In this document: piece after piece, positions 6,896 through 23,112 of the stretch
Position numbering within the stretch: the stretch's first letter is position 1
Layout: each line of letters starts with the position of its first letter
IMG/VR virus record: IMGVR_UViG_3300017996_000018
Location: 1 to 23,459 of that record
Strand: one strand, 5' to 3'
Length of the DNA stretch: 23,459 nt
Origin: a virus
Program-made: the position numbers and the translations under genes
The notes under the pieces: model-generated
Seen by the model: only the letters and a program-made list of their open reading frames with translations
What the model was told of the DNA's origin: nothing
Database searches by the model: none

Positions 6896-7309
6896 ATGGC
6901 CATCCACGCAATTGTGAACCTGAACCTGCGGACCGGCGATGCTCTCCTGAGCGTGAGAACGGCGATCCTCTCCGCGACCCAGGACCTGTTTGACGAAGAA
7001 ATCGTCCCGACGGCAAAAGAGCTATCCCCGGTCACACCCGAAGGCTATGCGCGAAATGAGGAACTGAAGGCGGAGCACAAGCTCGGCGGCCGACGAGTCG
7101 GCGGAACTGGTACCAACCGGCGCTCGATTGACGCCGTAGTGACCGACACTCCGGAAGGGCCGAAGGCGGAACTTTTCACGCAATCCGGCTACGGCGGCTA
7201 TCTCGAACTCGGCACCTCGAAGATGCGCGCCCAGCCCTATCTGAATCCGGCCTTCGAGATGCACATCGGGAAGCTCCCGGAAAAAGTGAAGGACAAGATC
7301 GGTGGTTGA
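6896..7309 (+). CDS. HK97 gp10-like neck / tail completion protein
   Basis: 137 residues. The C-terminal motif YGGYLELGTSKMRAQPYLNPAFE (residues about 100-122) is the hallmark of the HK97 gp10 family: a Y...LE.GTS.M.A.P.L.PA core. Members act at the head-tail interface or in tail completion. A basic stretch (KLGGRRVGGTGTNRRS) precedes it. The stop overlaps the GTG of the next gene. Its start region lacks a Shine-Dalgarno but holds three 9-base repeats. Confidence 0.85.
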   Translation: MAIHAIVNLNLRTGDALLSVRTAILSATQDLFDEEIVPTAKELSPVTPEGYARNEELKAEHKLGGRRVGGTGTNRRSIDAVVTDTPEGPKAELFTQSGYGGYLELGTSKMRAQPYLNPAFEMHIGKLPEKVKDKIGG

Positions 7310-7805
7310 CGCCAATCTTGTTGTCCGGGAATTTCTCCTTAGCCAGGCGGAAGTCACGGCCCTCCTCGGCACGAATGCGAACGGCTCGATCTACTGCGGT
7401 TATGACCTCCCGGAACATTTCGACCCGACGCTTGGCCCGGCGATTCAGATTTTCCGCGTCGGCGGCCATTCCCACCCGGAGATCATGGGCCTCGTCGATG
7501 CCCGCATGTGCGTCCGGGTCTGGGCCGCGGTCGAAAAGGCGCTGCTCGGCTCCCAGGTCTACGGGGCAATCAACGACGTTCTGCATGGACTCTGCGGCTT
7601 CACCGTAGCCGATGGGACGATCGTGCGCGCTTTGGAAGTCACCGGACCCCTGGAGATGACTGACCCGAATACCGGCTGGATCGCAGTCTATGCCTTCTAT
7701 CAGGTAATGGCGCGGCCGGGTGGCGTGGCTGGTCTCGCTTTGGAAAGCGGCGGCCTGTTCGAGATCGAAAGCGGCACGGGGACCATCTCCTTAGAGGAAC
7801 AATGA
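7302..7805 (+). CDS. Tail terminator / completion protein (DUF3168-like)
   Basis: 167 residues. The GTG start lies inside the end of the gp10-like gene, so the two are translationally coupled. The length, the opening helix (VVREFLLSQAEVTALLG), the I.C.YDLPE strand, the R..VRVWA...ALL...V..A..DVL helix and the D..TGW.AVYAFYQVMAR strand match small tail-terminator proteins that cap the tube and join it to the neck. Gene order (adaptor, stopper, gp10-like, then this) supports it. In most siphophages the tail tube gene would follow at once; here 5.8 kb of other genes come between. Confidence 0.7.
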   Translation: MVDANLVVREFLLSQAEVTALLGTNANGSIYCGYDLPEHFDPTLGPAIQIFRVGGHSHPEIMGLVDARMCVRVWAAVEKALLGSQVYGAINDVLHGLCGFTVADGTIVRALEVTGPLEMTDPNTGWIAVYAFYQVMARPGGVAGLALESGGLFEIESGTGTISLEEQ

Positions 7806-8809
7806 TGAAACGCCTTATCGTTTGTCTCTACCTGCTCCTGGCCACGTTTTCGCTCGCGCAAAACACCAAGATTTCGCAGCTCCCTGCAGGAGCTCCAGCG
7901 CAGGCGAATGACCTGCTGCCAGCGGCACGCAGCGGGTCGAATGTAAGCCTCAAAGTCTCAGACATCATCGGCTTCCTGAGCGCCGCCAACGTCAATGCGA
8001 TCTACGCGAATGCGGACGCAGTGATTCATGGCATAACCGTGGGTTTGGGTGGAGGAGCGCAGCCGTACAACATTGCCTTTGGCTACCAAGCGCTGTTGTC
8101 TAACACAACTGGTACGGAAAACCTAGCAATTGGCGGGCACACGCAGCAGCACGCAACAACCGGATCTTACAATCTTGCTCTTGGTACGTCTGCGATGGCC
8201 GCGGGGATTGCTACTGGCAACTATAACATTGCGCTTGGAGTGAGTTCCCTCGAAGACAACACCAGTGGTGCTAACAATATGGCGATTGGCGGATCTTCCT
8301 TGTTTTCCAATACCACCGGAAGTGACAACATCGCCATCGGCTATCAGGCTGGATACACTGCAAGCCCGTCCAACGCGAACGTAAGTGGCAGCCAAAACAC
8401 GTGGATCGGAAGCAATACTGGGCCTTCTTCCGCGACGCAGCTCACGAACGCCACAGCCATCGGCTACGCCGCTCTGAACACAGCCAGCAACCAAGTCGTG
8501 ATCGGAGACTCGGCTGTTACGAGTGTCATAATTGGCGGATTGGGACCGTTGCAGAGCGGCGCCTTTGCCCCAGTGCCAGTCGAAGGCAGCGGGACTTTGA
8601 GCTCCAGCGGTGACCCAGGGGCGATTTTGGTGGTTACTGGCCTCACATTCTCCAGCGCGAGCTATTTCGTTGCCATAACCCGGACAGGGCCGCCGGCTGG
8701 AAATGGAAACGGCATTCTCTATGTGACCAACCAGACAGCGACCGGGTTCACCATCGTCTCCACTGACACCACGGAAGACGGCTCGGCGATTTCCTGGGCA
8801 GCTTACTAA
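7802..8809 (+). CDS. Tail-fibre-like protein with signal peptide and YadA-head-type repeats
   Basis: 335 residues. Residues 1-19 look like a signal peptide: Lys/Arg, a Leu-rich core, then SLA before Gln20. Next comes the phage-fibre N-terminal phrase KISQLPAG...NDLLPAAR...LKVSDI (22-57). Residues 90-246 are about nine repeats of the form N.A.G...A (IAFGYQAL, LAIGG, LALGTSAM, IALGVSSL, MAIGGSSL, IAIGYQAG and others), the left-handed trimeric roll seen in YadA heads and some fibres. The end (247-335) is a fibre-tip-like sandwich closing in SAISWAAY. The start overlaps the previous stop. A second ATG at 7805 is better spaced (6 bases) from AGAGGA and may be the true start. A receptor-binding role is likely; the signal peptide is unexpected. 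Confidence 0.75.
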   Translation: MMKRLIVCLYLLLATFSLAQNTKISQLPAGAPAQANDLLPAARSGSNVSLKVSDIIGFLSAANVNAIYANADAVIHGITVGLGGGAQPYNIAFGYQALLSNTTGTENLAIGGHTQQHATTGSYNLALGTSAMAAGIATGNYNIALGVSSLEDNTSGANNMAIGGSSLFSNTTGSDNIAIGYQAGYTASPSNANVSGSQNTWIGSNTGPSSATQLTNATAIGYAALNTASNQVVIGDSAVTSVIIGGLGPLQSGAFAPVPVEGSGTLSSSGDPGAILVVTGLTFSSASYFVAITRTGPPAGNGNGILYVTNQTATGFTIVSTDTTEDGSAISWAAY

Positions 8810-8813
8810 AGCA

Positions 8814-10079
8814 GTGAAACTCCGCAACTTAGCGCTTCAGATATTCCTAGCTTTTGGCTTTTGTGGGATCGCTCTGTCTCAGGCGGTCATGTCGAGTCCG
8901 ACGCCCGGCTCGACCCTCACGAGCAGCTCCCAAACTTTCACCTGGACATGCTCCTCTTGCGGCGCGACTGCGTACTGGCTGGATATCGGCACGACCAAGG
9001 GAGGCAGCAACCTCTACAACTCCGGCAACCTCGGGAATGTCCTGGCTGTGACCGCGAGTGGGTTGCCGACCAATGGAGCCATGCTTTATGTGACGCTTTT
9101 CTCGCTGGTTAGCGGTTCCTGGCTCTACAACCAGTACACCTACACGGCGCTCAGCGGCACATCCGATGCAGCCGTGATGTCGAGCCCGACTCCGGGCTCG
9201 ACCCTGACCGGCAGCAGCGTGACCTTCACCTGGACGGCCGGGACTGGCGCGACGAACTACTGGGTTGACATCGGTCCAACCAAGTACTCGAACACTTGGT
9301 ATCAAACCGGATTTCTTGGAAACGTGCTGACGTTCACCGCAAAAAGCCTCCCATTGAACGGCAATCCGGTGTACGTGACCTTGTGGTCCCTGATCGGCGG
9401 AAATCTCTTTTACAACGAGTATCAGTACGCCTCGGAGAATGCGACGGCGGGTTTAGCCGTGATGCAAACCCCAGCTCCGGGATCGACACTGACTCAGAGC
9501 TCCAATACGTGGACTTGGACAGCAGATTCCAATGCTGCAGCGTACTGGATCGATATAGGCACGGTTGCCGGTGGGAACTCGATCTTTACATCGGGGAACG
9601 TGAATGCGACGACCGGATTGGGTAACGTAACAACTTACTACATCGGAGGAAGCACGCTCTTTCCTCAGTTCCCCGCGAACGGCAGCACGATTTACGTGAC
9701 CCTGGGTTCTCTCGTCAGTGGCCAGTGGTTCAGCAACAGCTACACGTACACACTCGCATCGCACTATGTCACTCTCTCCTGGACTGAGGCGAATAATTCC
9801 GATCCAGCCGTGGGCTACAACGTCTACCGCAGCTTTGAGAGTACCGGATGGAGCCAGTATTCCTGCAAACCGTCGAATTACAACTGCGGCCAGGTCAACG
9901 CGTCCTTAATCACCGCGACCACTTATAATGACGAGCCCTGCGCCAACGGAACGACTTGCACCGGTGCGGGCAGCCAGGGAATCGTACTTGGGGACACTTA
10001 TGCTTATGCGGTGACGGCAGTGGACGCCGCCGGCAATGAAAGCGCTTATTCCACACCGGTTTCAGTGGCCATCCCGTGA
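8814..10079 (+). CDS. Exported protein with three Ig-like repeats and a fibronectin III domain
   Basis: 421 residues. A signal peptide (1-23) ends near LSQA. Three repeats of about 90 residues follow (24-112, 120-206, 215-313), each starting AVM..P.PGSTL and containing YW.DIG, YVTL.SL and Y.Y. They are followed by a fibronectin-type-III-like domain (317-421) with VTLSWTEA, GYNVYRS and YAYAVTAVDAAGNESAYS. These are extracellular carbohydrate- or protein-binding scaffolds. This repeat and FN3 style is familiar to me from Acidobacteriota secreted proteins, which is the main host hint. The GTG start is 4 bases after the previous stop, and the stop overlaps the next start. It could be a virion fibre or a secreted host-surface protein; the sequence does not decide. 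Confidence 0.75.
   Translation: MKLRNLALQIFLAFGFCGIALSQAVMSSPTPGSTLTSSSQTFTWTCSSCGATAYWLDIGTTKGGSNLYNSGNLGNVLAVTASGLPTNGAMLYVTLFSLVSGSWLYNQYTYTALSGTSDAAVMSSPTPGSTLTGSSVTFTWTAGTGATNYWVDIGPTKYSNTWYQTGFLGNVLTFTAKSLPLNGNPVYVTLWSLIGGNLFYNEYQYASENATAGLAVMQTPAPGSTLTQSSNTWTWTADSNAAAYWIDIGTVAGGNSIFTSGNVNATTGLGNVTTYYIGGSTLFPQFPANGSTIYVTLGSLVSGQWFSNSYTYTLASHYVTLSWTEANNSDPAVGYNVYRSFESTGWSQYSCKPSNYNCGQVNASLITATTYNDEPCANGTTCTGAGSQGIVLGDTYAYAVTAVDAAGNESAYSTPVSVAIP
8883..9752 (+). repeat. Three-copy internal coding repeat (Ig-like module)
   Basis: Three diverged copies of an approximately 265-300 base unit at 8883-9149, 9171-9431 and 9456-9752. The copies remain recognisable as DNA at their starts (for example CCGGGCTCGACCCTGAC in the second). 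They encode the AVM..P.PGSTL modules of the exported Ig/FN3 protein. Copies 1 and 2 are closest, suggesting stepwise duplication. Confidence 0.8.
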
Positions 10080-10480
10080 GCAAAATAAGCTGTTCCCTCG
10101 CCTTCCTCCTGATTTTCTCCGGGATTTTGCTGGCGGAAGTCCCGGACGCCCCCAGCACCCGCTCGAATTGGAAGACGATCACCAACAAGACCTACCTGGC
10201 AACGGCTTTCGGGGATTTGGCGGCGACCTCCTTCGACATTGAAATGAGCAAGGAAGGCTACGCTCACCATCGCTGTGTGGAAGGCGGAGCGGGCCTGCCG
10301 AAATACCCGACGAGAGGGCAGCTTTACCGGCACGAATTGCCGGAGAACCTTTTCGCTTTTGGCTTCGGCTTTCTGCTCACGAAATTCAAGGCGCCGCGCT
10401 GGCTCATGCCCATCCCGGTGGCCTACCCGATCCAGGCTCACATCCGGGCGGGCCTCGGCTGGTACGAGCACTGTTGGTAA
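10076..10480 (+). CDS. Small exported or membrane protein, hypothetical (134 aa)
   Basis: The GTG overlaps the previous stop (GTGA). A signal peptide (1-20) ends in GILLA, followed by EVPDAPST, a junction I associate loosely with Acidobacteriota exported proteins. The mature part has one possible helix (YLATAFGDLAATSFDIEMS), a His/Cys spot (HHRC), then PTRGQLYRHELPENL, and two moderately hydrophobic stretches (LFAFGFGFLLTKF and LMPIPVAYPIQ). It ends in YEHCW. No function is recognised. It could sit in the inner membrane or periplasm. It is co-translated with the Ig/FN3 protein, so the two probably work together. Confidence 0.65.
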   Translation: MSKISCSLAFLLIFSGILLAEVPDAPSTRSNWKTITNKTYLATAFGDLAATSFDIEMSKEGYAHHRCVEGGAGLPKYPTRGQLYRHELPENLFAFGFGFLLTKFKAPRWLMPIPVAYPIQAHIRAGLGWYEHCW

Positions 10481-10569
10481 AAAGGACCCAACTGCATTCC
10501 CGCCGATTCCCCGGTGACCAAAGAGCTAACAAACCTAACCCATTGCCTCAGTTTCTAGGAGGACCAACC

Positions 10570-11328
10570 ATGCACAAACTACACAAACTGCTTCGTTTTC
10601 TTCTGCCGGTTCTGTTGCTCTCCAGTTGTCTCTTGGCAGACGAAGCCCGCCGCAATACCGTCGTGATTTCCGTCTCCGGCCAGACCGGTCCGCCGATTGA
10701 GAACATCAGCGGGGCGGTCACGGCCAGTTTCGAGGAGCTGATTGCTGGCTCGCCTTCCACCGTCTCGATCGTGATCCAGGGATGTATGCAAGGCGGGACT
10801 TGCACCACGCTCGAAACCAACACCTCGACCACGGCTGGGCAGATTCGCACGCCCACCATCTCGACTGTCTATGACTACTTCACGGTTCAGGCTTCCTGGA
10901 CCGGAGGAACAAAGGTCTCCGTCACCGTCAACGCCACTCTCACCACCGCCGTCAATGGCGGGGGTGGGGGAGGGCCATCCACCGTATGTATCCCCGGTTC
11001 CTTCGCCGCGCAAACCGACGGAGCGACGGTGACCTGGGCCATCGGCAGCTCCATTTGCGCCAATGCCTCGCTGCTGTTCACCGTGCACAGCGGCAGCCGG
11101 ACGTTAGCCCTGACCGGACTCGTTAATGGGGGCTCCTACATCCTGGAGATTCAGCAAGACAGCACAGGTGGAGAAGGTCTGACGCTCGGGTCAGGTTGCA
11201 CGTGGAAGGTATCGAACGGAGGCGGCGCAGCCGTCACGCCAAGTACCGGAGCGAGTGCGGTTGACGTGCTCGCTTTCACTTATGACGGAACCAACTGCCT
11301 CGCAAACTTCGCGACGAACTTCAACTAA
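10570..11328 (+). CDS. Exported fibre-tip-like protein, possible lipoprotein
   Basis: 252 residues from the ATG at 10570, chosen because AGGAGG stands 7 bases before it; an earlier in-frame start at 10474 overlaps the previous gene and would bury the signal peptide. Residues 1-23 are hydrophobic with a lipobox-like LSSC (Cys20) and an alternative cleavage site LLA (21-23). Domain 1 (28-127) is a beta sandwich. A run of six glycines (130-135) links to domain 2 (136-252), which carries the phage fibre-tip pattern: VTWAIG, TLALTGL..G..Y.L...QD..GG, and VDVLAFTYDGTNCLA. The tip domain is normally found at the end of tail fibres, so an exported or lipid-anchored form is odd. The export call is good; virion membership is unknown. 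Confidence 0.7.
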   Translation: MHKLHKLLRFLLPVLLLSSCLLADEARRNTVVISVSGQTGPPIENISGAVTASFEELIAGSPSTVSIVIQGCMQGGTCTTLETNTSTTAGQIRTPTISTVYDYFTVQASWTGGTKVSVTVNATLTTAVNGGGGGGPSTVCIPGSFAAQTDGATVTWAIGSSICANASLLFTVHSGSRTLALTGLVNGGSYILEIQQDSTGGEGLTLGSGCTWKVSNGGGAAVTPSTGASAVDVLAFTYDGTNCLANFATNFN

Positions 11329-11329
11329 T

Positions 11330-13498
11330 ATGAAACTGCAAATCTTAGTCGCCACAGCGGTTGCGTTGTTCTGCTATCCCATGTGGGCGGTCAACAACCA
11401 GCTTCTTGCCTCGGACAATTTTGCTTCCGGCTCGCTCGCCGCGGGCTGGACTGCATACGATGGTTATCTCGCCAGTGCGGTTGTTGCCGGATCTCCGAAC
11501 TTTGTTCAGCCTAATACCCTCTCGACTGAGGCGGGCCAGATTTGGACTGGACTTGCTTGGCCGAAGGACCAAATCTCCGAAGTCACAGTCAAAGCGCTAG
11601 CCATGGAGGCAGGAACTTACGTCCAACTGCTCGTTCGTGCGCAATCTGGAGCCGGAGACAGTGGGTATGTGGCGAACATCGGCGGCGGTGGAAATCTCCA
11701 AATCTATGAGATGACAAACGGAGCTGGCGTCCAGATCGGTTCGACCGTTACCGGCTTAACGCTTGCTGCGGGAGATGTGTACACATTCTCGGCAAACGGC
11801 AGCATCCTGACGGTCTATCAGAACTACAAAAGGCTGTTGTACGTTACGGCTACGAAATATACCTCCGGCTCTCCTGGATTCGCGCAGCAATCCTCGGTAG
11901 CGCTGGCGCATACGCAGGTCTACTCTTGGCGCGGCTACTCCGGTGTGCAGCAGGATGGCATCTGGCAAAAGCAGGGTGTACTCATTCCCGGCCTTGCGGG
12001 AGATTATGTCAGCGGGTCAGGCGGGACATTCTGCAACAGCCAAGTGTTCTACGGCGCTGCTTCCTTGCTGACTGGCAACGTATTTTATATGTGGATTTCG
12101 CAAGGTTCCGGGGCAACGGGAGCCATCTACTACGCAGAATCGACAGATGGCGTAACGTGGACTCGCAGCGCCTCTGCTGTCATTGCTGCGGCGGCGTTTC
12201 CTTCTGTAATCCAAAATGGTTCGACCTATAATCTCTACGCCCAGCCTAACGGTGACGGTGCTACGGACTTCGCTTTGTGGACATCCACGGATCGGGTGAC
12301 GTGGACTCAGCAGAGCACTACGATTGTTGGGTTGGGAGGGACAGGCGCATGGGACCATGCGTTTATTTGGAATTTCATCCCCGTCTCCATCGTGAGCGGA
12401 ACCTGGTACGCGCTATATTCGGCGGGAAGCAGCACAACGACGTATCAGTTTTCGACCGGCCTCGCCACCTCCAGCGACGGCGTAACGTGGACAAAATACG
12501 GGAGCAACCCCGTGCTTGCGAATGGGTACGTCGGCGCGGTGGTCTCCGTTGGAGGTAATTATTACGCTTGGTTCGGCCTTGCCCAACCAGGACAGAATCA
12601 GACGCTTCCAGCGTTAGATCCGACGCAGACCATTCGTTATCAGTCCCTAGACTTGAAAACGTGGAAGAACCCGACTCATTCCATTCACACCTCGCAGTTG
12701 TTTGAAGGCATGAACGCGACGACGGGGCAGTCTTATCCAAACTCTTTGGTGGACATCGGAAGAAAAGCCTACATGTTTACCACTAGCTCTAGTTCGGACA
12801 GCGCTGTGCCTAGCGTCTACAATTTAGGTCTCGCCATCGCTCCTGCCCCTATTGAGCTAATCGTCCTCTATCCAGAGGATGCGGCGCAACAAATTGCCAC
12901 GGACTCTTTTTCTGGGGGTGCCGGAAATCTCAGTGCAAAATGGACCACGCCGACGGGAGGGACGAAACTGCAAATTTCTGCCAGCTCAACCTCTGAGCCC
13001 TCGGCTATCAACACGCATTGCGGACAGTTCTATTCCGGAGCGACATTTTCCCCGAACCAGTATTCAGAGATAACCATTGGCAGCCTTTCCTCCGGCGGCT
13101 ATATGTACCCCACGGTTCGAGGGCAGACTGGGGCCGTCAGTTGGTATGAGTCGCCAATCCCAGGCCCAGCAGGAACGTTAACCACTACAGGTATTTACAA
13201 GATGGTCAGCGGGACCGAAACCCAAATCGGCCCCACTATCAGCTTTACTCCGCAAGTTGGCGACACTATGCGACTGATGGCGACGACTGGCAGCGACGGC
13301 TATCCTGTACTGACGCTCTTTCAGAACGGGTTTCAGTTGTTGCAAGTTGATGACTACGGAAACACCTTCACTTCCGGCTATCCCGGCATCAGCCAGTACG
13401 GATCAACAGTTTCCTATTCCCAGGTGAGTTCGTTTGCGGCAGGAAACGCGGGCGTGATTCCTACGTATAGCTCCACATTCTTCATTTTTGGAAGATAG
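11330..13498 (+). CDS. Exported five-bladed-propeller (GH43/GH32-like) protein with duplicated flanking domains
   Basis: 722 residues from ATG 11330, one base after the previous stop. A signal peptide (1-20) ends in PMWA. Domain A (25-203) and domain B (523-705) are similar beta sandwiches: both begin A(S/T)D(N/S)F..G and share G..IG.T(V/I), LT(V/L)(Y/F)QN(Y/G) and TSG(S/Y)PG(F/I). Between them (208-505) lies a propeller-like region with S.D..TWT turns at 271-277, 319-325 and 381-387 and a fourth DLKTW at 441-445, the style of five-bladed glycosidases such as GH43 or GH32. I cannot assign catalytic acids with confidence. A role in binding or cleaving surface polysaccharide, as a tail spike or secreted enzyme, is likely. 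A weak Shine-Dalgarno suggests coupling to the previous gene. Confidence 0.7.
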   Translation: MKLQILVATAVALFCYPMWAVNNQLLASDNFASGSLAAGWTAYDGYLASAVVAGSPNFVQPNTLSTEAGQIWTGLAWPKDQISEVTVKALAMEAGTYVQLLVRAQSGAGDSGYVANIGGGGNLQIYEMTNGAGVQIGSTVTGLTLAAGDVYTFSANGSILTVYQNYKRLLYVTATKYTSGSPGFAQQSSVALAHTQVYSWRGYSGVQQDGIWQKQGVLIPGLAGDYVSGSGGTFCNSQVFYGAASLLTGNVFYMWISQGSGATGAIYYAESTDGVTWTRSASAVIAAAAFPSVIQNGSTYNLYAQPNGDGATDFALWTSTDRVTWTQQSTTIVGLGGTGAWDHAFIWNFIPVSIVSGTWYALYSAGSSTTTYQFSTGLATSSDGVTWTKYGSNPVLANGYVGAVVSVGGNYYAWFGLAQPGQNQTLPALDPTQTIRYQSLDLKTWKNPTHSIHTSQLFEGMNATTGQSYPNSLVDIGRKAYMFTTSSSSDSAVPSVYNLGLAIAPAPIELIVLYPEDAAQQIATDSFSGGAGNLSAKWTTPTGGTKLQISASSTSEPSAINTHCGQFYSGATFSPNQYSEITIGSLSSGGYMYPTVRGQTGAVSWYESPIPGPAGTLTTTGIYKMVSGTETQIGPTISFTPQVGDTMRLMATTGSDGYPVLTLFQNGFQLLQVDDYGNTFTSGYPGISQYGSTVSYSQVSSFAAGNAGVIPTYSSTFFIFGR

Positions 13499-13632: not shown

Positions 13633-14187
13633 ATGGGTGCACAACCCGATCAATCGCAAATCGTTGCAGGCCCCGGATTAATCATGATCGCTCCGCTGGG
13701 GACAACTTTACCTACTCTCACCCTGCCGCTCGTTTGGCCCTCGGGCTGGTTTGCGGTCGGCTACACCGACGCCGGGATCGACGCCATCTACACCCCGACG
13801 ATCAAGGAGCTCTATGTCGACGAGGTCCCGGCCCCGGTCGGCGACATTCTCGAAAAAGAGAAATTCGTGCTGCAGGCGCACCTGGCGGAAGCCAACTTGC
13901 TGAATTTGCAAGTGGCCATTTCGGCCTCCGTCTACAGCACTTCCCCGATCCAGATCACCGGCGGCGCGGAGCCATTGAGCTACGTCATGGTCGGCGTTTC
14001 GGCACCAGCGCCGAACGGCAGCACGCGCGTGATCCTGCTCCAGAAAGCGATCACCACCGTCGCCGTCTCCATGAAGATCACCCGTAAAGACAAGGTGGTC
14101 TATCCGGTGAGCTGGGATGCCCGCCAGATTTCTGGGACCTACCTGTTTCAGATCACCGATCTCGGCACCGGCTACGAAAACAGCTAA
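13633..14187 (+). CDS. Major tail tube protein
   Basis: 184 residues, beta-rich. The opening (VAGPGLIMIAPLGTTLPT...WPSGWFAVGYTDAGIDAIYTPTIKELYVDEVPAPVGDIL) is a common siphophage tail tube pattern: a G.G.I..APLGT start, W..VGYTD.G, and then a strand ending in E....P. The C-terminal half has the .......D..I..KA...... strand and ends in a basic strand plus WDARQISGTYLFQITDLG. Tube proteins stack as hexamer rings round the tape measure. The strong Shine-Dalgarno and hairpin before the gene fit high expression, and the next genes are the tail chaperones and tape measure, the invariant siphophage order. Confidence 0.85.
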   Translation: MGAQPDQSQIVAGPGLIMIAPLGTTLPTLTLPLVWPSGWFAVGYTDAGIDAIYTPTIKELYVDEVPAPVGDILEKEKFVLQAHLAEANLLNLQVAISASVYSTSPIQITGGAEPLSYVMVGVSAPAPNGSTRVILLQKAITTVAVSMKITRKDKVVYPVSWDARQISGTYLFQITDLGTGYENS

Positions 14188-14902: not shown

Positions 14903-17900
14903 ATGCCAGATACAGGACAAGGAATTGACGTTGGAGACGCCGTGTTGCATTTCCTTGGCGACACGACCCAGCTCGATCTAGCCTTCGACCGGGTTGCGAC
15001 CGATGCAGAAGTAAAAATGGCCAAGGCTGCTGACAGCGTTAGCCAGGTGGGCGACGCCATGGACTCGATCGGTCCGAGCGCCACGGCCGCGGGTGCGCAG
15101 ATCACCGCGGGCATGGGCAAGGCGGAGGTTTCAGTCCGCGGCGTCAGCGAGCAGGCCCGCGTGGCCGAAGAGATGCTCGGCATCCGTCTCCCAAGAGGCG
15201 TCAATACTTTCATCGCTACACTGCCAGGACTGCAGACTGCAATTTCTGCGGCCTTCAGTGTGGGCGTCGCGTTTTTTCTTATCGAGGCCCTGGTCAAAGG
15301 CATCGAGAAAATTCAGGAGTTTGTCGAACACGCGCACAAGATGGCGCTGGCCTTCGATGCCTTCGATACGGCAGTCGCGCAGAGCTTCGGAGGCCTCGAC
15401 GACAAACTTCTCCAGGCTGGAATCAAGATGGACGATCTGAAGGGCAACCACGTCGACGCCCTCAGAAAGCAACTGGAGCTGATCGATCATGTCTCGATGC
15501 ATGAGTTGGAGCAGCAATTCAGTCTGCTCGCGAAAGCCGCCGATGCGATGTTTGCCCAACTGACGGCAAGCTGGTATGAGATCGGCTCCGGCTCGAAGGG
15601 CGCACAGAATGCTCTGGCAGACCTCAAGGCGCAATACGATCTCCTGCTCGCCGAGGGCAAAAAGAAAGAAGCCTCAGACCTCTTAGCCGGCACGCTGAAA
15701 TCAGCACAAGATACTCAAAAGGCCCTGCAAGCCGCGAAGAAAGAGGCCGAGGAACTCAACGCCATGGCAGCCGAGACGCCAGGGGCAGCGCCCTCGGCGA
15801 ACGCGGGCCCGAGCGAAAAAGAACTGCAGGCGCAGGATGTCCTCGTCCGCGCCCTCGATGCGCAGGTCGAGGCTCAGAAGAAGATCGCCGAGCTGGAGAA
15901 AGACGAAACCTTCATCAAGCAGACCGAGGAAGGCAAACGGGCCGCGGAAGAGAGAGCCGCCGAAGAAAAACGCGCACTCGATGCCCAACTGGCGAACATC
16001 GAAGCCTGGAAGTCCGCGCAGCACGCGGCCTACGAGTCCGGCAAAACTGACCTGGCAACCTGGCTGGCCGCCGAGGTTCGCGCGTCCGACGCAGCTGCCA
16101 TCGCACACGAGGACTATCTGCAGAAAGTGATCGCCCTCTATACGCGATCGGGGCAGGCCATCAAAGCACAGGAAGCGGCCCAGCAACTGGCGACCCTGCA
16201 GACCAAGGATGCGGCGAAAGAGATGGACGAGCTCGCCTCGGCCATGAACAAGCACCATGAGGCCACGCGCAAGGTCGTCGAGGAGTACGCACGCTTGGTC
16301 GAGGCTAATGTCGCCAAAGACTTCGAAGCCGCACAAAAAGCGGCCGAAGGACTGACCAAGGCAGAAGACGAGCTCCTGAAGGCGCAGTCCAAACTCGCCG
16401 AAGACAAGCTCTCCCAGCACTACAAAGATCAGGAAGCTGCAATCACGAAACTCGCGGCGATGCACCTGATCACCGAGGAGCAGAAAGACGACCGGCTGAA
16501 ACTGCTTGAACAGCAGCAGGCGAATGCGGCGCTTGCGATTCTTAACGACCAGCTCGCGAAAGAGGAACTTGCAGTGCGCGCGGCGGCCGCCAAGTTAGCG
16601 GAAGTTAAGCTGAGCCCAGGCGTCTCGCCAGCAGCCGTGATCGAAGCCGAAGCCGAGCTGAAGAAACTGGAAACGGCTGTCACCAACACGGAAGACCAGA
16701 TCGTCCAGACGAAAGAGAAATTCAATAAGCAGAGCGAACAGGACGACAAGAGCCACTACGGAAAGGCATTGCTTGAAGCGATGGCCTACGGTGCGGAACT
16801 GCTCGCCGAACAGTTGAAGCAGAACCATGGGGATCTTCTGGCAGCGGAGAACCAACTCACGCTGGCGAAAGCCAGAGGCGAGAATACCGCCGCGATCCAG
16901 AAACAAATCGATGTTCTCAAACAGCACGAAAAGGAACTGGAGAAAGAAGCCAACGGGGATAAGACCCTCATCCTTGAGCAAGAGAAACATACGGAGGGGC
17001 AGCTACGGTATGCACAAGCTTTACTGGCAACCCTGAAAGCCGAAGGGATGCAGACGACCGAGGTCGAGAAGGAGATCAAAGACCTACAACTCCTGCTGAT
17101 AGCGCAACAGAAGGAAGCCCAGGAATTGCCCAAGATGAAGACGGCCATGCAGGGCGTCACCATGGCCAGCGAGAAACTCGGCACCATGCTGAAGAGCACT
17201 GCGCAGGAGATGGATAATGCGTTCGCGAGCGCCATCATGGGTGCCATCGCTAGCGGAAAATCCATCGGACAGGCGATGGAGCAAGCCACGGCTACAGTGC
17301 TGAAAAACCTCGCCACTCAAGCGCTCGCCCACGCGATCTACTGTACCGCCATGGGCATTGCCGAGCTGGCTTTGGGCGTGACCGACGAATCGGCTGCTGA
17401 ATGGTTTGCGGCTGCTGCCGAGTTTGGCTTGGTCGCTGGGGCCAGCGGCGCTCTAGGTGTCGCGATGGGTGGCAGCGGATCCAGCAGCGGCGGAGGCCAG
17501 CAGGCGCCAAGTGTCGGCCAGGCTTCAAGTTCTGCCGGCGCAGGTGGCGGCGCGGGCACACAAACCGTGGGAGTTACCCACTTAGCCGCCGGCGGCGTGG
17601 TCAGCCGAAAAATCATGATCGGGGATAGCCCATCCGGCGGCGATGCCGAGGAAGCGATTCTGCCGCTCTCCGACCAGAGCGCGATGCGGAAGATCGTCAA
17701 CGCCATTTTGCCGGTACTGCCCCAGAACGCGCCCGGCTTCGGTTTCGCCACACCCTCGCAGGCGCCTCCCAAAGGTTTCGATCTGAGTCAGCCCTCTTCG
17801 AGCGACCGGCCGGATATCCACTCCGGCAACCCGGCAGACGGGGACTTCACCCGGAGCGAGGCGTCGATTCCGCGGGATGCAATGGGCATGGAAGCCCTGG

Positions 17901-18232
17901 CGGCGAGTTTTGGCGGCCTGCTCTCAACCCCCACCCTCCGGGCCGCCGCAGGCTCTCGCCGCTCAACCGACGCGGCCGCTGCCGCGGCGCTGCCGCCTGT
18001 AGGATTCGATAGCGCCAGCATGGAGAAATTTGCCGACCGGGTGGGAAAACAGGTTAGCCAGATCAGCCAGCCCGCAGTGAGTGACCAGAATCATATCCAC
18101 GTCAATGTCAAGGGCATGATCTCGCCCGACAATTTGAATAAAGTCGTAAAGAAAATCAACCGGGCAGTGCAGAACCGCCAGACCACGCTCAACGCCTCGA
18201 ACTCGCTGCGCGTCACCCGCAGGAGCCAGTAG
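14903..18232 (+). CDS. Tape measure protein
   Basis: 1109 residues, the longest gene, placed right after the chaperones. It has a globular start (1-90), a hydrophobic segment (about 102-132, ATLPGLQTAISAAFSV..FFLIEAL), a very long charged coiled coil (about 135-770, with repeats rich in Ala, Glu, Lys and Gln), a second hydrophobic zone (about 773-855), a Gly/Ser linker (856-890) and a C-terminal domain with HLAAGGVVSRKIMIGDSPSGGDAEEAILPL, a common tape-measure end motif. It sets tail length and takes part in DNA entry. At roughly 0.15 nm per residue the tail would be near 165 nm. There is no obvious lytic transglycosylase or peptidase domain. The start has only a weak Shine-Dalgarno. Confidence 0.9.
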   Translation: MPDTGQGIDVGDAVLHFLGDTTQLDLAFDRVATDAEVKMAKAADSVSQVGDAMDSIGPSATAAGAQITAGMGKAEVSVRGVSEQARVAEEMLGIRLPRGVNTFIATLPGLQTAISAAFSVGVAFFLIEALVKGIEKIQEFVEHAHKMALAFDAFDTAVAQSFGGLDDKLLQAGIKMDDLKGNHVDALRKQLELIDHVSMHELEQQFSLLAKAADAMFAQLTASWYEIGSGSKGAQNALADLKAQYDLLLAEGKKKEASDLLAGTLKSAQDTQKALQAAKKEAEELNAMAAETPGAAPSANAGPSEKELQAQDVLVRALDAQVEAQKKIAELEKDETFIKQTEEGKRAAEERAAEEKRALDAQLANIEAWKSAQHAAYESGKTDLATWLAAEVRASDAAAIAHEDYLQKVIALYTRSGQAIKAQEAAQQLATLQTKDAAKEMDELASAMNKHHEATRKVVEEYARLVEANVAKDFEAAQKAAEGLTKAEDELLKAQSKLAEDKLSQHYKDQEAAITKLAAMHLITEEQKDDRLKLLEQQQANAALAILNDQLAKEELAVRAAAAKLAEVKLSPGVSPAAVIEAEAELKKLETAVTNTEDQIVQTKEKFNKQSEQDDKSHYGKALLEAMAYGAELLAEQLKQNHGDLLAAENQLTLAKARGENTAAIQKQIDVLKQHEKELEKEANGDKTLILEQEKHTEGQLRYAQALLATLKAEGMQTTEVEKEIKDLQLLLIAQQKEAQELPKMKTAMQGVTMASEKLGTMLKSTAQEMDNAFASAIMGAIASGKSIGQAMEQATATVLKNLATQALAHAIYCTAMGIAELALGVTDESAAEWFAAAAEFGLVAGASGALGVAMGGSGSSSGGGQQAPSVGQASSSAGAGGGAGTQTVGVTHLAAGGVVSRKIMIGDSPSGGDAEEAILPLSDQSAMRKIVNAILPVLPQNAPGFGFATPSQAPPKGFDLSQPSSSDRPDIHSGNPADGDFTRSEASIPRDAMGMEALAASFGGLLSTPTLRAAAGSRRSTDAAAAAALPPVGFDSASMEKFADRVGKQVSQISQPAVSDQNHIHVNVKGMISPDNLNKVVKKINRAVQNRQTTLNASNSLRVTRRSQ

Positions 18233-18256: not shown

Positions 18257-19351
18257 ATGTCTTCCCTGATCCAATCGTCGAACGGTTTTAACTTTGGGAG
18301 CGGCGCCTTCCCATCAGGGACAACGGAAGGGAGCATGCTGGTCTGCATTTCCGCGGGCTATCTTTCGGGAGGGAGCGGCTACCCGGTGATCGACCTTCCA
18401 ACGACTCCTGGCCTTACCTGGGACCCTGTGACGAGTGAGCAGGGCCTATCTGGCGGGACAGCCCAGACTGTTTCGATCTTCTTTTGCCCGAACGCGCCTG
18501 CGATTTCACCAAGTACCGAGACCACGGTCCTTGCTTCCAATACCAATGGGGGAAGCTACAACCTGAACGGGTTTCAGCTACTCGAGGTTGGCGGGCTTGG
18601 GGTGGCAACGGTAGCCACCGTGCTCGGAGCCTCGGGTGCCGCCCCTGCATTTGCCGGAGCGGGCAATCTCCCCGTCCCTGGAGGCGGGTCGTTCCTGCTC
18701 GCTGTGGCTGCCGATCCCGAGCTCAACAGCGAAATGCTTGCCGGCAGTTCTTGGACGCTGACCCCCATTGGCGGCGGAATCGGGTCTTATCCGCTGGCAA
18801 GCCAGTATCTGGCCACGGCGACTGGCGGTTCCTATAGCACATCTTTTACTGATGCCACGGAGACGTGGTACGGGCCATGGGTGTGCGCCGCGGTTGCCTT
18901 TGCGATCATTCCCACCCCGACCACCGGATTCACCCCGAAGTATCCGCCCATCAAAAAACAGCCCTTTACCCTCTGGGGCCTCGAAGCCAAGCGGTTCGAC
19001 TCCATCACCGTCGATGGGCTGAAGGAATCTGTCTTAGAACGAATTGACGAGGTGACCACTCTGCACTTTCCCCAGGTGGCTCTGAGCGACATGACGGCCT
19101 GGAAAGCCTTCGAATCTTATGCGCTCACAGCAGGCGTCTTCACTTATCTGCCGATCCTTGATTTTCCGAACATTCCGATCGGTGATGCCATCGAGGATCA
19201 GATGTTCCAGTACCCGGGTACTGTCCCAGGCGAGACTGGATGCTCGCTCTGCCAGCTGCTCTCGATGGAGTGGAGGCCGAAATTCGAATCGTTCCAGATT
19301 TTCTCCTTGGACATGAAGCTGCGCCTCGTCGCCGATGAGGTTGGAAGCTAA
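18257..19351 (+). CDS. Distal-tail-like protein fused to an N-terminal sandwich domain
   Basis: 364 residues in two parts. Residues 1-217 form a beta-rich Gly/Ser domain (GSMLVCISAGYL, TVSIFFCPNAP, GSFLLAVAADPE, WVCAAVAFAIIP), a style seen in phage surface or adhesin domains and again in the truncated gene at 23121. Residues 224-360 are clearly similar to the next gene: FTP.YP.I.KQP, DSIT..G(L/I)K..VLERID(E/D)V.TL.F, SD..AWKA, and a final W.PK...........L..RL(V). That repeated part is probably a Dit-like or other tail-tip protein, judged by its place between tape measure and hub. The fusion suggests the N-terminal part is displayed at the tail tip. Confidence 0.6.
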   Translation: MSSLIQSSNGFNFGSGAFPSGTTEGSMLVCISAGYLSGGSGYPVIDLPTTPGLTWDPVTSEQGLSGGTAQTVSIFFCPNAPAISPSTETTVLASNTNGGSYNLNGFQLLEVGGLGVATVATVLGASGAAPAFAGAGNLPVPGGGSFLLAVAADPELNSEMLAGSSWTLTPIGGGIGSYPLASQYLATATGGSYSTSFTDATETWYGPWVCAAVAFAIIPTPTTGFTPKYPPIKKQPFTLWGLEAKRFDSITVDGLKESVLERIDEVTTLHFPQVALSDMTAWKAFESYALTAGVFTYLPILDFPNIPIGDAIEDQMFQYPGTVPGETGCSLCQLLSMEWRPKFESFQIFSLDMKLRLVADEVGS

Positions 19352-21695: not shown

Positions 21696-21720
21696 ACTCA
21701 GAAAAAAGGAAGTGGGCCCA

Positions 21721-22524
21721 ATGAATCCAACACTCGCAAACATCCTGCTGGCGGCCATTTTCGGCGTCACTGCATCCATCATGCTCTTCGGAGCCCTTGC
21801 CATGTTCTTCGCCCGTGATCTCTTTGCCCGCATGTGGGCGAACGTCACGAAGCCGCTCGGCCTGGCACTGGTTGTCGGCTACGTGGCCATTTGCGCTGCA
21901 GCGTCCCCGACTCTGTTCAGTCTTACCAGCCAAGTCCAAGGTATCTTGCCGCTGGTAAACGGCGGTACGAATCAATCAAGCGCCACAATTTCAGCTCACA
22001 ACTGGTTTGGGAACAATACAGCATCCACCACCGCCCCTGGCTATGAGCAGCCCGCGTGCGGCGATCTGTCTAACGCCGGCGCGGGATGCCAGATGTCAAC
22101 CACGGCAGCGGGCGATCTTAGCGGCACTCTCCCTTCAGCCAACGTCGTGAGCACTCACATCAGCGGAGGAACGAATACCGACCTTGCGATATTTAACTCG
22201 ACTGGGAACATGGTTAACTATGCCGGTGCATCGACGTGCACAGGATCACAAGCCGTGCAGACCATCACGGCTTCCGGCGGCGTGACCTGCATCACCACGA
22301 TCAGCGGAAATCTGGTGGACGCGGAAACTCCGGGCGGCTCATGTCCGACGACGACTCTGACGCTTGCGCACACTCCAAACCCTTCTACGGACCTGAAGCT
22401 GTACAAGAACGGCCAGCGGCTGATCGTAGGAGCATCGGCAGATTATACCCTTAGCACTTCGACTGTCACCTTGGCATCTTCGTGTGCCGCAACTGATGCG
22501 TTCATAGCCGATTACAGGTACTGA
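21721..22524 (+). CDS. Fibre-like protein with two N-terminal transmembrane segments
   Basis: 267 residues from ATG 21721, preceded by AAGGA 10 bases upstream; a GTG at 21712 lies too near that site. Residues 7-30 and 46-65 are strong hydrophobic segments separated by a charged loop (ARDLFARMWANVTKP), a two-pass holin-like topology. Then comes typical fibre text: LFSLTSQVQGILPLVNGGTNQSS, HNWFGNNT, GYEQPACGDLSN, DLSGTLPSANV, and the C-terminal LYKNGQRLIVGASADYTLS module shared with the previous gene. Fibres normally carry no membrane segments. It could be a membrane-tethered fibre or a real fusion of a small membrane protein and a fibre. Confidence 0.7.
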   Translation: MNPTLANILLAAIFGVTASIMLFGALAMFFARDLFARMWANVTKPLGLALVVGYVAICAAASPTLFSLTSQVQGILPLVNGGTNQSSATISAHNWFGNNTASTTAPGYEQPACGDLSNAGAGCQMSTTAAGDLSGTLPSANVVSTHISGGTNTDLAIFNSTGNMVNYAGASTCTGSQAVQTITASGGVTCITTISGNLVDAETPGGSCPTTTLTLAHTPNPSTDLKLYKNGQRLIVGASADYTLSTSTVTLASSCAATDAFIADYRY

Positions 22525-22536
22525 TAGGCCCGACGA

Positions 22537-23112
22537 ATGCAATGGAAGCGAATTGCGGCGACCGTAGCCCTGCTGTGGATTTCTGCTTGGCTCTTTCTCG
22601 GCTCGGCCAGCCTCTTCAATCTGGCGACTCAGGTGACTGGCATCTTGCCATGCGCCGACATGCCGGCCTTGACCGGGCCTATTACCACCACCGCGGGAGC
22701 ATGCGCCACCAGCCAGGCCGATCTGACGGGAGCGCTTTCGAGCGCAGTAACCATGACCACGGCGGGGACCTTCTACGCCGGGCCAACCGTCTCTCTGACT
22801 GCAGGGACGTGGCATCTCACGGGCTCCGTCAGCCTGCAAACGACGAGCACGGCCAGCGCCGTAGAGTTTACCTGCAAACTCTGGGACGGCACCACGACCG
22901 CAGGCGCTGGCTATGCAGCAATCGGGGCGGTGGGAACGGCGGCGGTACGCAATGAGCAGATGGCTTTGACTGGCGTCCTGGCCGAGACCGGGTCCGTGAC
23001 CGGGGAAATTAGCTGCACGTCCAATACAGCTTCCCAATTGATCGAAGCCGCGCCAGGCTACACATCGCCCGGAAACTACGCCAGCACTTTAGTCGCAATC
23101 CGAATTAAGTAA
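22537..23112 (+). CDS. Fibre-tip-like protein with N-terminal membrane segment
   Basis: 191 residues. Residues 7-26 (IAATVALLWISAWLFLGSAS) form one hydrophobic segment after a basic start, either a signal peptide or an anchor. Then LFNLATQVTGILPCADMPALTG, the same fibre phrase as in the previous gene, leads to a tip domain (about 70-190): TFYAGPTVSLTAGTWHLTGSV, FTCKLWDGTT, and NYASTLVAIRI, a frequent receptor-side sandwich of phage fibres. It follows the membrane-fibre gene after 12 bases. A weak Shine-Dalgarno (GACGA). Virion fibre or exported binding protein. Confidence 0.7.
   Translation: MQWKRIAATVALLWISAWLFLGSASLFNLATQVTGILPCADMPALTGPITTTAGACATSQADLTGALSSAVTMTTAGTFYAGPTVSLTAGTWHLTGSVSLQTTSTASAVEFTCKLWDGTTTAGAGYAAIGAVGTAAVRNEQMALTGVLAETGSVTGEISCTSNTASQLIEAAPGYTSPGNYASTLVAIRIK

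Follow-up and report, generated by a model that had tools for sequence, protein, structure and literature searches.

Signal-peptide-bearing fibre- and adhesin-type genes inside the tail operon of a tailed phage

The five-gene block and its setting

Tail fibres set the host range of tailed phages and, in the accepted view, are both produced and mounted on the particle in the cytoplasm. The stretch of DNA analysed here (the window; 23,459 nucleotides, positions 1 to 23,459 of IMG/VR virus record IMGVR_UViG_3300017996_000018) is a metagenomic fragment holding the late region of a tailed soil phage, and its tail operon carries a block of five genes, A to E, whose products all begin with signal peptides. 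Head genes come first, followed by the tail terminator; the block and then the tail tube come next, and two small genes precede the tape measure (14903-18232), after which lie distal tail genes. As the original prediction, made from the sequence alone, had described, the five genes lie collinearly on one strand (plus), spanning 7802-13498 between the terminator (7302-7805, plus strand; phrog_123, 2.7e-8) and the tube (13633-14187, plus strand; Pfam Phage_TTP_17, 1.2e-6; phrog_2175). By comparison, lambda and HK97 have zero genes in this interval. The terminator stop overlaps the start of gene A (ATGA), a 4-base gap separates A from B, B and C overlap (GTGA), and D and E are 1 base apart, leaving the 89 bases between C and D as the sole real spacing. 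These overlapping starts and stops, together with the terminator-to-tube position, place the block genes within the late structural operon. Moreover, promoter- and terminator-like sites in the block were fewer than in shuffled sequences, in consensus scans that do not cover all promoter types.

Pfam matches for the five products were either lacking or insignificant, and their modules were recognized by other means. Gene A (7802-8809, 335 amino acids) encodes a signal peptide (7802-7858, ending FSLA↓Q, with the arrow marking the cut), a KISQLPA-type N-terminal segment, and a YadA-like roll (phrog_6002, 3e-21; phrog_4636, tail spike, 9.4e-20) that matches structural or tail spike genes in cultured phages. 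Gene D (10570-11328, 252 amino acids), preceded by a strong ribosome-binding site (AGGAGG), encodes a signal peptide and a fibre-tip domain at residues 137-252 with an invariant cysteine pair (GSGCTW...YDGTNC). The structural model of D (predicted local distance difference test score, pLDDT, of 87) has the phage Pa223 capsid spike as its best PDB match (5e-4), and the tip has 159 viral matches in BFVD at E<=0.001, many of them tail fibre proteins, while tblastn gave no match among cultured phages. Gene E (11330-13498, 722 amino acids) encodes a signal peptide and two beta-sandwich domains flanking a propeller of glycoside hydrolase (GH) 32/43/117 type. A PDB profile search returned GH43 (1.5e-7), and the model, with a moderate pLDDT of 72, matches levanase, GH43, and GH117 folds, which are taken as a guide to class and not to catalytic sites. 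At the fold level gene E appears to carry a GH43/117-type propeller, and several of its acidic residues are invariant.

The other two genes differ in kind. Gene B (8814-10079, 421 amino acids) encodes a signal peptide, three immunoglobulin (Ig)-like repeats, and an FN3-like segment. Its repeats have counterparts, at 33-48% identity, in proteins from 5 of 199 Acidobacteriota genomes, in loci encoding large proteins that often bear leaders, and some of the repeat copies have signal peptides of their own. These relatives are chromosomal and lie outside phage operons. Gene B gave no phage match and pattern searches started from it yielded no viral relative; judged by its sequence, it is a host-type secreted Ig-repeat protein. 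Gene C (10076-10480, 134 amino acids) has a signal peptide and no relatives in IMG/VR or in 247 Acidobacteriota genomes, and, being a small orphan without fibre-like character, it was rejected as a fibre. The C-terminal half of gene C is hydrophobic, and it could conceivably be an envelope or lysis-related protein. The expectation of phage-fibre or surface modules in the mature parts is borne out for A, D, and E, whose modules are of phage type (a YadA roll, a fibre tip, and a GH43/117-like propeller, respectively); it finds no support for C as a fibre or for B as a phage module.

Leaders, matched modules, and cysteines

Signal peptides were called with a simple, self-written scorer of the n-, h-, and c-regions, which flagged all five block genes (11.1, 9.2, 8.9, 10.5, and 6.8 for A to E) and so agreed with the signal-peptide-like starts in the original prediction. 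In calibration, the scorer recovered 10 of 11 known Escherichia coli signal peptides, and when 81 late genes were taken from lambda, T7, P22, and HK97, four scored at least 8: Lom and Rz1 (both truly exported), the Rz spanin (a membrane anchor), and orf-314 (a clear false positive). Among the other 21 genes of the window, it flagged only those starting at 21712 and 22537, plus an implausible call at 18257 (score 1.7), and the classical virion genes showed no signal peptide start. The n-, h-, and c-regions expected for Sec and signal peptidase I are present throughout, and small residues occupy positions -1 and -3, although E is weak at -3. Of the cleavage ends originally noted, SLA stands for A; B could be cut at either ALS↓Q or SQA↓V, and MWA in E is a weak site. 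A relative of E, L036, has a clear leader at the equivalent position. Furthermore, the leaders of A to E are unrelated in sequence to one another, which argues against a single chance motif. It is almost certain, as far as sequence can tell, that A to E would cross the inner membrane via Sec and be cleaved by signal peptidase I.

The strongest evidence comes from matched families, in which one and the same module appears with a leader in some phages and without it in others. In gene E and in L036, a leader precedes (V/A)NNQLLASDNF. The orthologues of E in L035, L037-L040, L050, L055, and L056 (44-50% identity in the aligned set) are leaderless, start as M-A-NN.LASD.F, and sit in virion gene clusters; the start of a further orthologue, in L047, is not clear. 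In a second family, the gene L010_7166 encodes a leader, then a PLAGGKL.TY N-domain whose identity with cultured phages reaches 47%, and also a beta-helix domain, whereas in the tail spike of Xanthomonas phage PBR31 and others the same N-domain begins at or near the protein's own Met. Gene gp12 of the cultured phage Tunturi_1 likewise has a leader (predicted mature N-terminus QTAAY) followed by a VPGATV-type N-domain, which lies within about 15 residues of the Met in the spikes of Serratia phage MTx, Klebsiella phage KA2-1, and Erwinia phage Cronus, distant matches at E-values of 1e-4 to 2e-3.

A fourth family, a neck-type domain, occurs as a fusion to the C-terminus of the leaderless terminator (L003:5519-6445 and L004:5107-6033) or to that of a head protein (L002:73-1155). 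It is also found behind leaders in L004_6085 and L002_1181, each of which follows a fused copy. The same domain is present in the Caulobacter phages S2B, Cr30, and KSC with no clear leader; in Cr30, the gene directly after it (L185:2857-4041) is leaderless and annotated as a beta-1,4 xylanase.

Cysteines could be compared in four families: the tip domain, the two N-domains, and the neck-type domain. In each of them, a cysteine pair present in the exported copies is absent from the leaderless ones; numbers per family are small, though the families are independent. For example, the tip pair (GSGC.W...YDGTNC) was found in 14/14 exported copies versus 0/3 distinct leaderless ones (Fisher 0.0015). 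Extra pairs are likewise confined to exported copies of the VPGATV N-domain and of the PLAGG N-domain, the latter through a cysteine-bearing insertion, and the neck-type domain has its pair in exported copies versus none in the Caulobacter phages or the terminator-fused paralogues. In a survey of 28 loci, cysteine content among fibre-like proteins was 2.07% in exported versus 0.67% in leaderless copies (p 5e-9), and mature cysteine counts in A to E (0, 6, 2, 6, and 2) are all even. From these patterns, disulfides would very probably form in the periplasm.

The same survey found leaders in 55/119 fibre-like late genes versus 9/204 other late genes (Fisher 1e-19), a contrast that is valid within loci but not a population rate, since the loci were gathered via exported genes. 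The leaders typically end Ala-X-Ala↓Gln, and a Gln at +1 follows 23/55 phage leaders and 18/52 leaders from an Acidobacteriaceae metagenome-assembled genome (MAG), the one containing L034. Among 63 other phage proteins sharing gene A's roll, found by the roll alone, none had a leader (0/63), and this family accordingly serves as a control and not as support.

Relatives, cultured phages, and hosts

Four syntenic relatives found via the tail tube were compared. The expectation that relatives would hold the same block at the same place proved half right: two of the four have leader genes between terminator and tube, namely L004 with three (6085, 7382, and 8380) and L003 with two (6456 and 8541), while L002 has none there but three in its head gene region (1181, 1912, and 3399) and L005 has none. 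The terminator-tube interval is thus a hot spot, and the leader-gene class shifts its position between phages. In L005 (3562-6039), the terminator continues in frame into a long, fibre-like C-terminal part (825 amino acids in total), and this fusion occupies the site of the exported block in the other phages. Runs of signal-peptide genes also occur inside the fibre clusters of unrelated soil phages.

Cultured representatives exist as well. The podovirus Tunturi_1 (PP887698), which infects Tunturiibacter psychrotolerans X5P2 (Acidobacteriota), encodes leaders on gp12, gp13, gp14 (annotated as a tail spike), gp16, and gp17 (annotated as a virion structural protein), in tandem after the tail protein gp11. 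Tunturi_2 retains the leaders of this type of block, and its gp14 is annotated as a pectin lyase; in both phages the block holds the only obvious candidates for fibres or spikes. Both resemble the window in having tandem signal-peptide fibre or spike genes beside a tail gene; they differ in their podovirus type and in that the block follows gp11 instead of lying between terminator and tube. Tunturi_3, which infects the same strain as Tunturi_1, has leaderless tail fibre genes and no such block, and on this account export was not taken to be imposed by the host. Leaderless fibres were also seen in the late genes read for Tunturi_4. On its early strand, Tunturi_1 has a further gene annotated as a tail protein, gp78 (L145:3744-4946), with a lipoprotein-like start (LLTGCAT) and a resemblance to SGNH hydrolases. 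In the paper describing these phages (PMC11924767), neither mass spectrometry nor signal peptides appear in the main text.

As for hosts, a tip-bearing gene lies beside host-like genes in a contig of an Acidobacteriaceae MAG (L034), which may, from its gene content, be a prophage. A search of 396 Acidobacteriota genomes with the tail tube of the window gave no match, which leaves the phage's own host unproven.

Among known systems, the tail fibres and tailspikes of Caudoviricetes share the YadA roll, tip beta-sandwich, beta-helix, N-terminal docking domains, and late tail gene position of the block class. These known proteins are made in the cytoplasm, however, and assemble without an export signal, whereas all five block genes have signal peptides; the Sec signal ahead of the docking domain and the extra cysteine pairs set the class apart. 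Lambda Lom and Bor and T5 Llp are exported phage proteins with roles in lysogenic conversion or receptor blocking. They are phage-encoded with signal peptides, and Lom lies near tail fibre genes, but they are single genes and not virion fibre modules. The pIII protein of inoviruses is a receptor-binding minor coat protein of the virion that bears a signal peptide and has its disulfides formed in the periplasm; however, its filamentous phage assembles at the membrane, without tail or lysis. The parts are known, and no earlier report of their union was found; the open-access literature offered no precedent for tail fibres or spikes that bear signal peptides.

Export, docking, and competing explanations

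The suspicion that late fibre- or adhesin-like proteins are exported now has strong support from the unrelated, well-formed leaders, from the placement of leaders just ahead of virion-type N-termini (gene E, L010, and Tunturi_1 gp12), and from cysteine pairs confined to exported copies. Very probably, they would cross the inner membrane late in infection, lose their leaders to the host's signal peptidase I, and take on their fold under the oxidising conditions of the periplasm, where cysteine pairs would lock them. What the proteins would do after export is less clear-cut from sequence. Upon lysis, virions built in the cytoplasm would meet the periplasmic content, and those proteins keeping a virion-docking N-domain could attach, yielding particles with disulfide-hardened receptor-binding or depolymerase fibres. 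Within the window, B and C are the most doubtful cases for docking, and they could act at the cell surface. That docking on virions happens at lysis seems to us an even proposition, and the complete chain, with the block as a class of fibre- or spike-type proteins made as Sec preproteins, falls just short of even. The generalisation that some tailed phages possess a second, periplasmic branch of morphogenesis, whose Sec-exported, disulfide-bonded fibres and spikes are docked only at lysis, is offered more tentatively still.

Docking is suggested by N-domains that lie at the virion end of spikes in other phages and by Tunturi_1, which apparently has no other receptor-binding candidate. Several points weigh against this account. 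B and C lack homology to fibre or spike modules, B looking host-type and C being an orphan; mature cysteines number zero in gene A, an exception to the enrichment, and only two in E; gene E has the lowest score of the five and a weak probable cut (MWA↓V, with Met at -3); and the survey was drawn through exported genes. In Tunturi_1, no large fibre- or spike-like gene was seen outside the exported set by composition and annotation, an approach that a small or divergent receptor-binding protein could escape. Moreover, no known step unites cytoplasmic virions with periplasmic fibres before dilution, and we know of no virion proteomics.

The chief competitor, possible though somewhat below even, holds that the proteins are exported as free effectors that never join virions. 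They would act in the periplasm, on the cell surface, or beyond it, by adhering, by blocking receptors, or, as depolymerases, by opening exopolysaccharide before or at lysis. The GH43/117-like propeller of gene E and its carbohydrate-binding-like flanks, so far as a moderate model can indicate, would suit such a role, as would the beta-helix of L010_7166, the pectin lyase annotation of Tunturi_2 gp14, the resemblance of gene B to secreted host proteins, the absence of a recognisable docking domain from several exported proteins, and the presence of leaderless virion fibres in the same genomes. It accounts poorly for the retention of virion-docking N-domains behind several leaders, for leaderless orthologues of gene E within virion gene clusters, and for Tunturi_1, whose only large fibre- or spike-like genes are exported. 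Docking and free action may both be true, for different members.

The remaining explanations carry little weight. Hydrophobic N-termini might stay uncleaved, serving in the virion or as membrane tethers on proteins that are cytoplasmic or anchored and follow the usual virion route. This would fit the two membrane segments of 21712 and the weak site in E, but it is improbable given that the leaders are mostly short and end in a good Ala-X-Ala site, that extra cysteine pairs occur only alongside leaders, and that the +1 Gln preference agrees with host exported proteins. Slightly less probable again is that the genes are morons, genes of lysogenic conversion, relocated into the tail operon, with prophage expression serving superinfection exclusion or fitness in the manner of lambda lom. 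Lom is indeed an exported protein encoded near tail genes, and L034, beside host-like genes, is a possible prophage; yet the consensus scans gave no promoter or terminator signal above chance, the block genes are translationally coupled to the terminator gene, and what stands in tandem, five or more times, is built of fibre modules. Finally, misassembly, gene decay, or chance hydrophobic starts might be invoked, considering that the window is a metagenomic fragment and that the start signals of B and C are weak, but such an artefact is exceedingly unlikely when the open frames are intact and the same pattern recurs in many independent contigs and two cultured genomes.

If docking at lysis is true, tailed-phage assembly would gain a new branch and an extra compartment; otherwise, the class would represent a widespread set of adhesins and depolymerases exported late in infection. 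On either reading, many soil phage genes now labelled hypothetical gain an interpretation, and the cultured phages make the question testable, with the exported set in Tunturi_1 and not in Tunturi_3 on the same strain.

Beyond the block, the window encodes two distal fibre-like proteins on the plus strand. The first (21712-22524) has two N-terminal membrane segments, the sequence VQGILPLVNGG, and seven cysteines; the second (22537-23112) has a signal peptide or anchor (score 8.8), the sequence VTGILPCADM, and, assuming cleavage, four mature cysteines. The two, both with membrane or signal starts, have QV(Q/T)GILP motifs in common. A signal-peptide gene with a fibre-tip domain also occurs in a chromosomal contig of a Nomurabacteria MAG (L033:9220-10400), where either a change of frame or ambiguous bases interrupt it.

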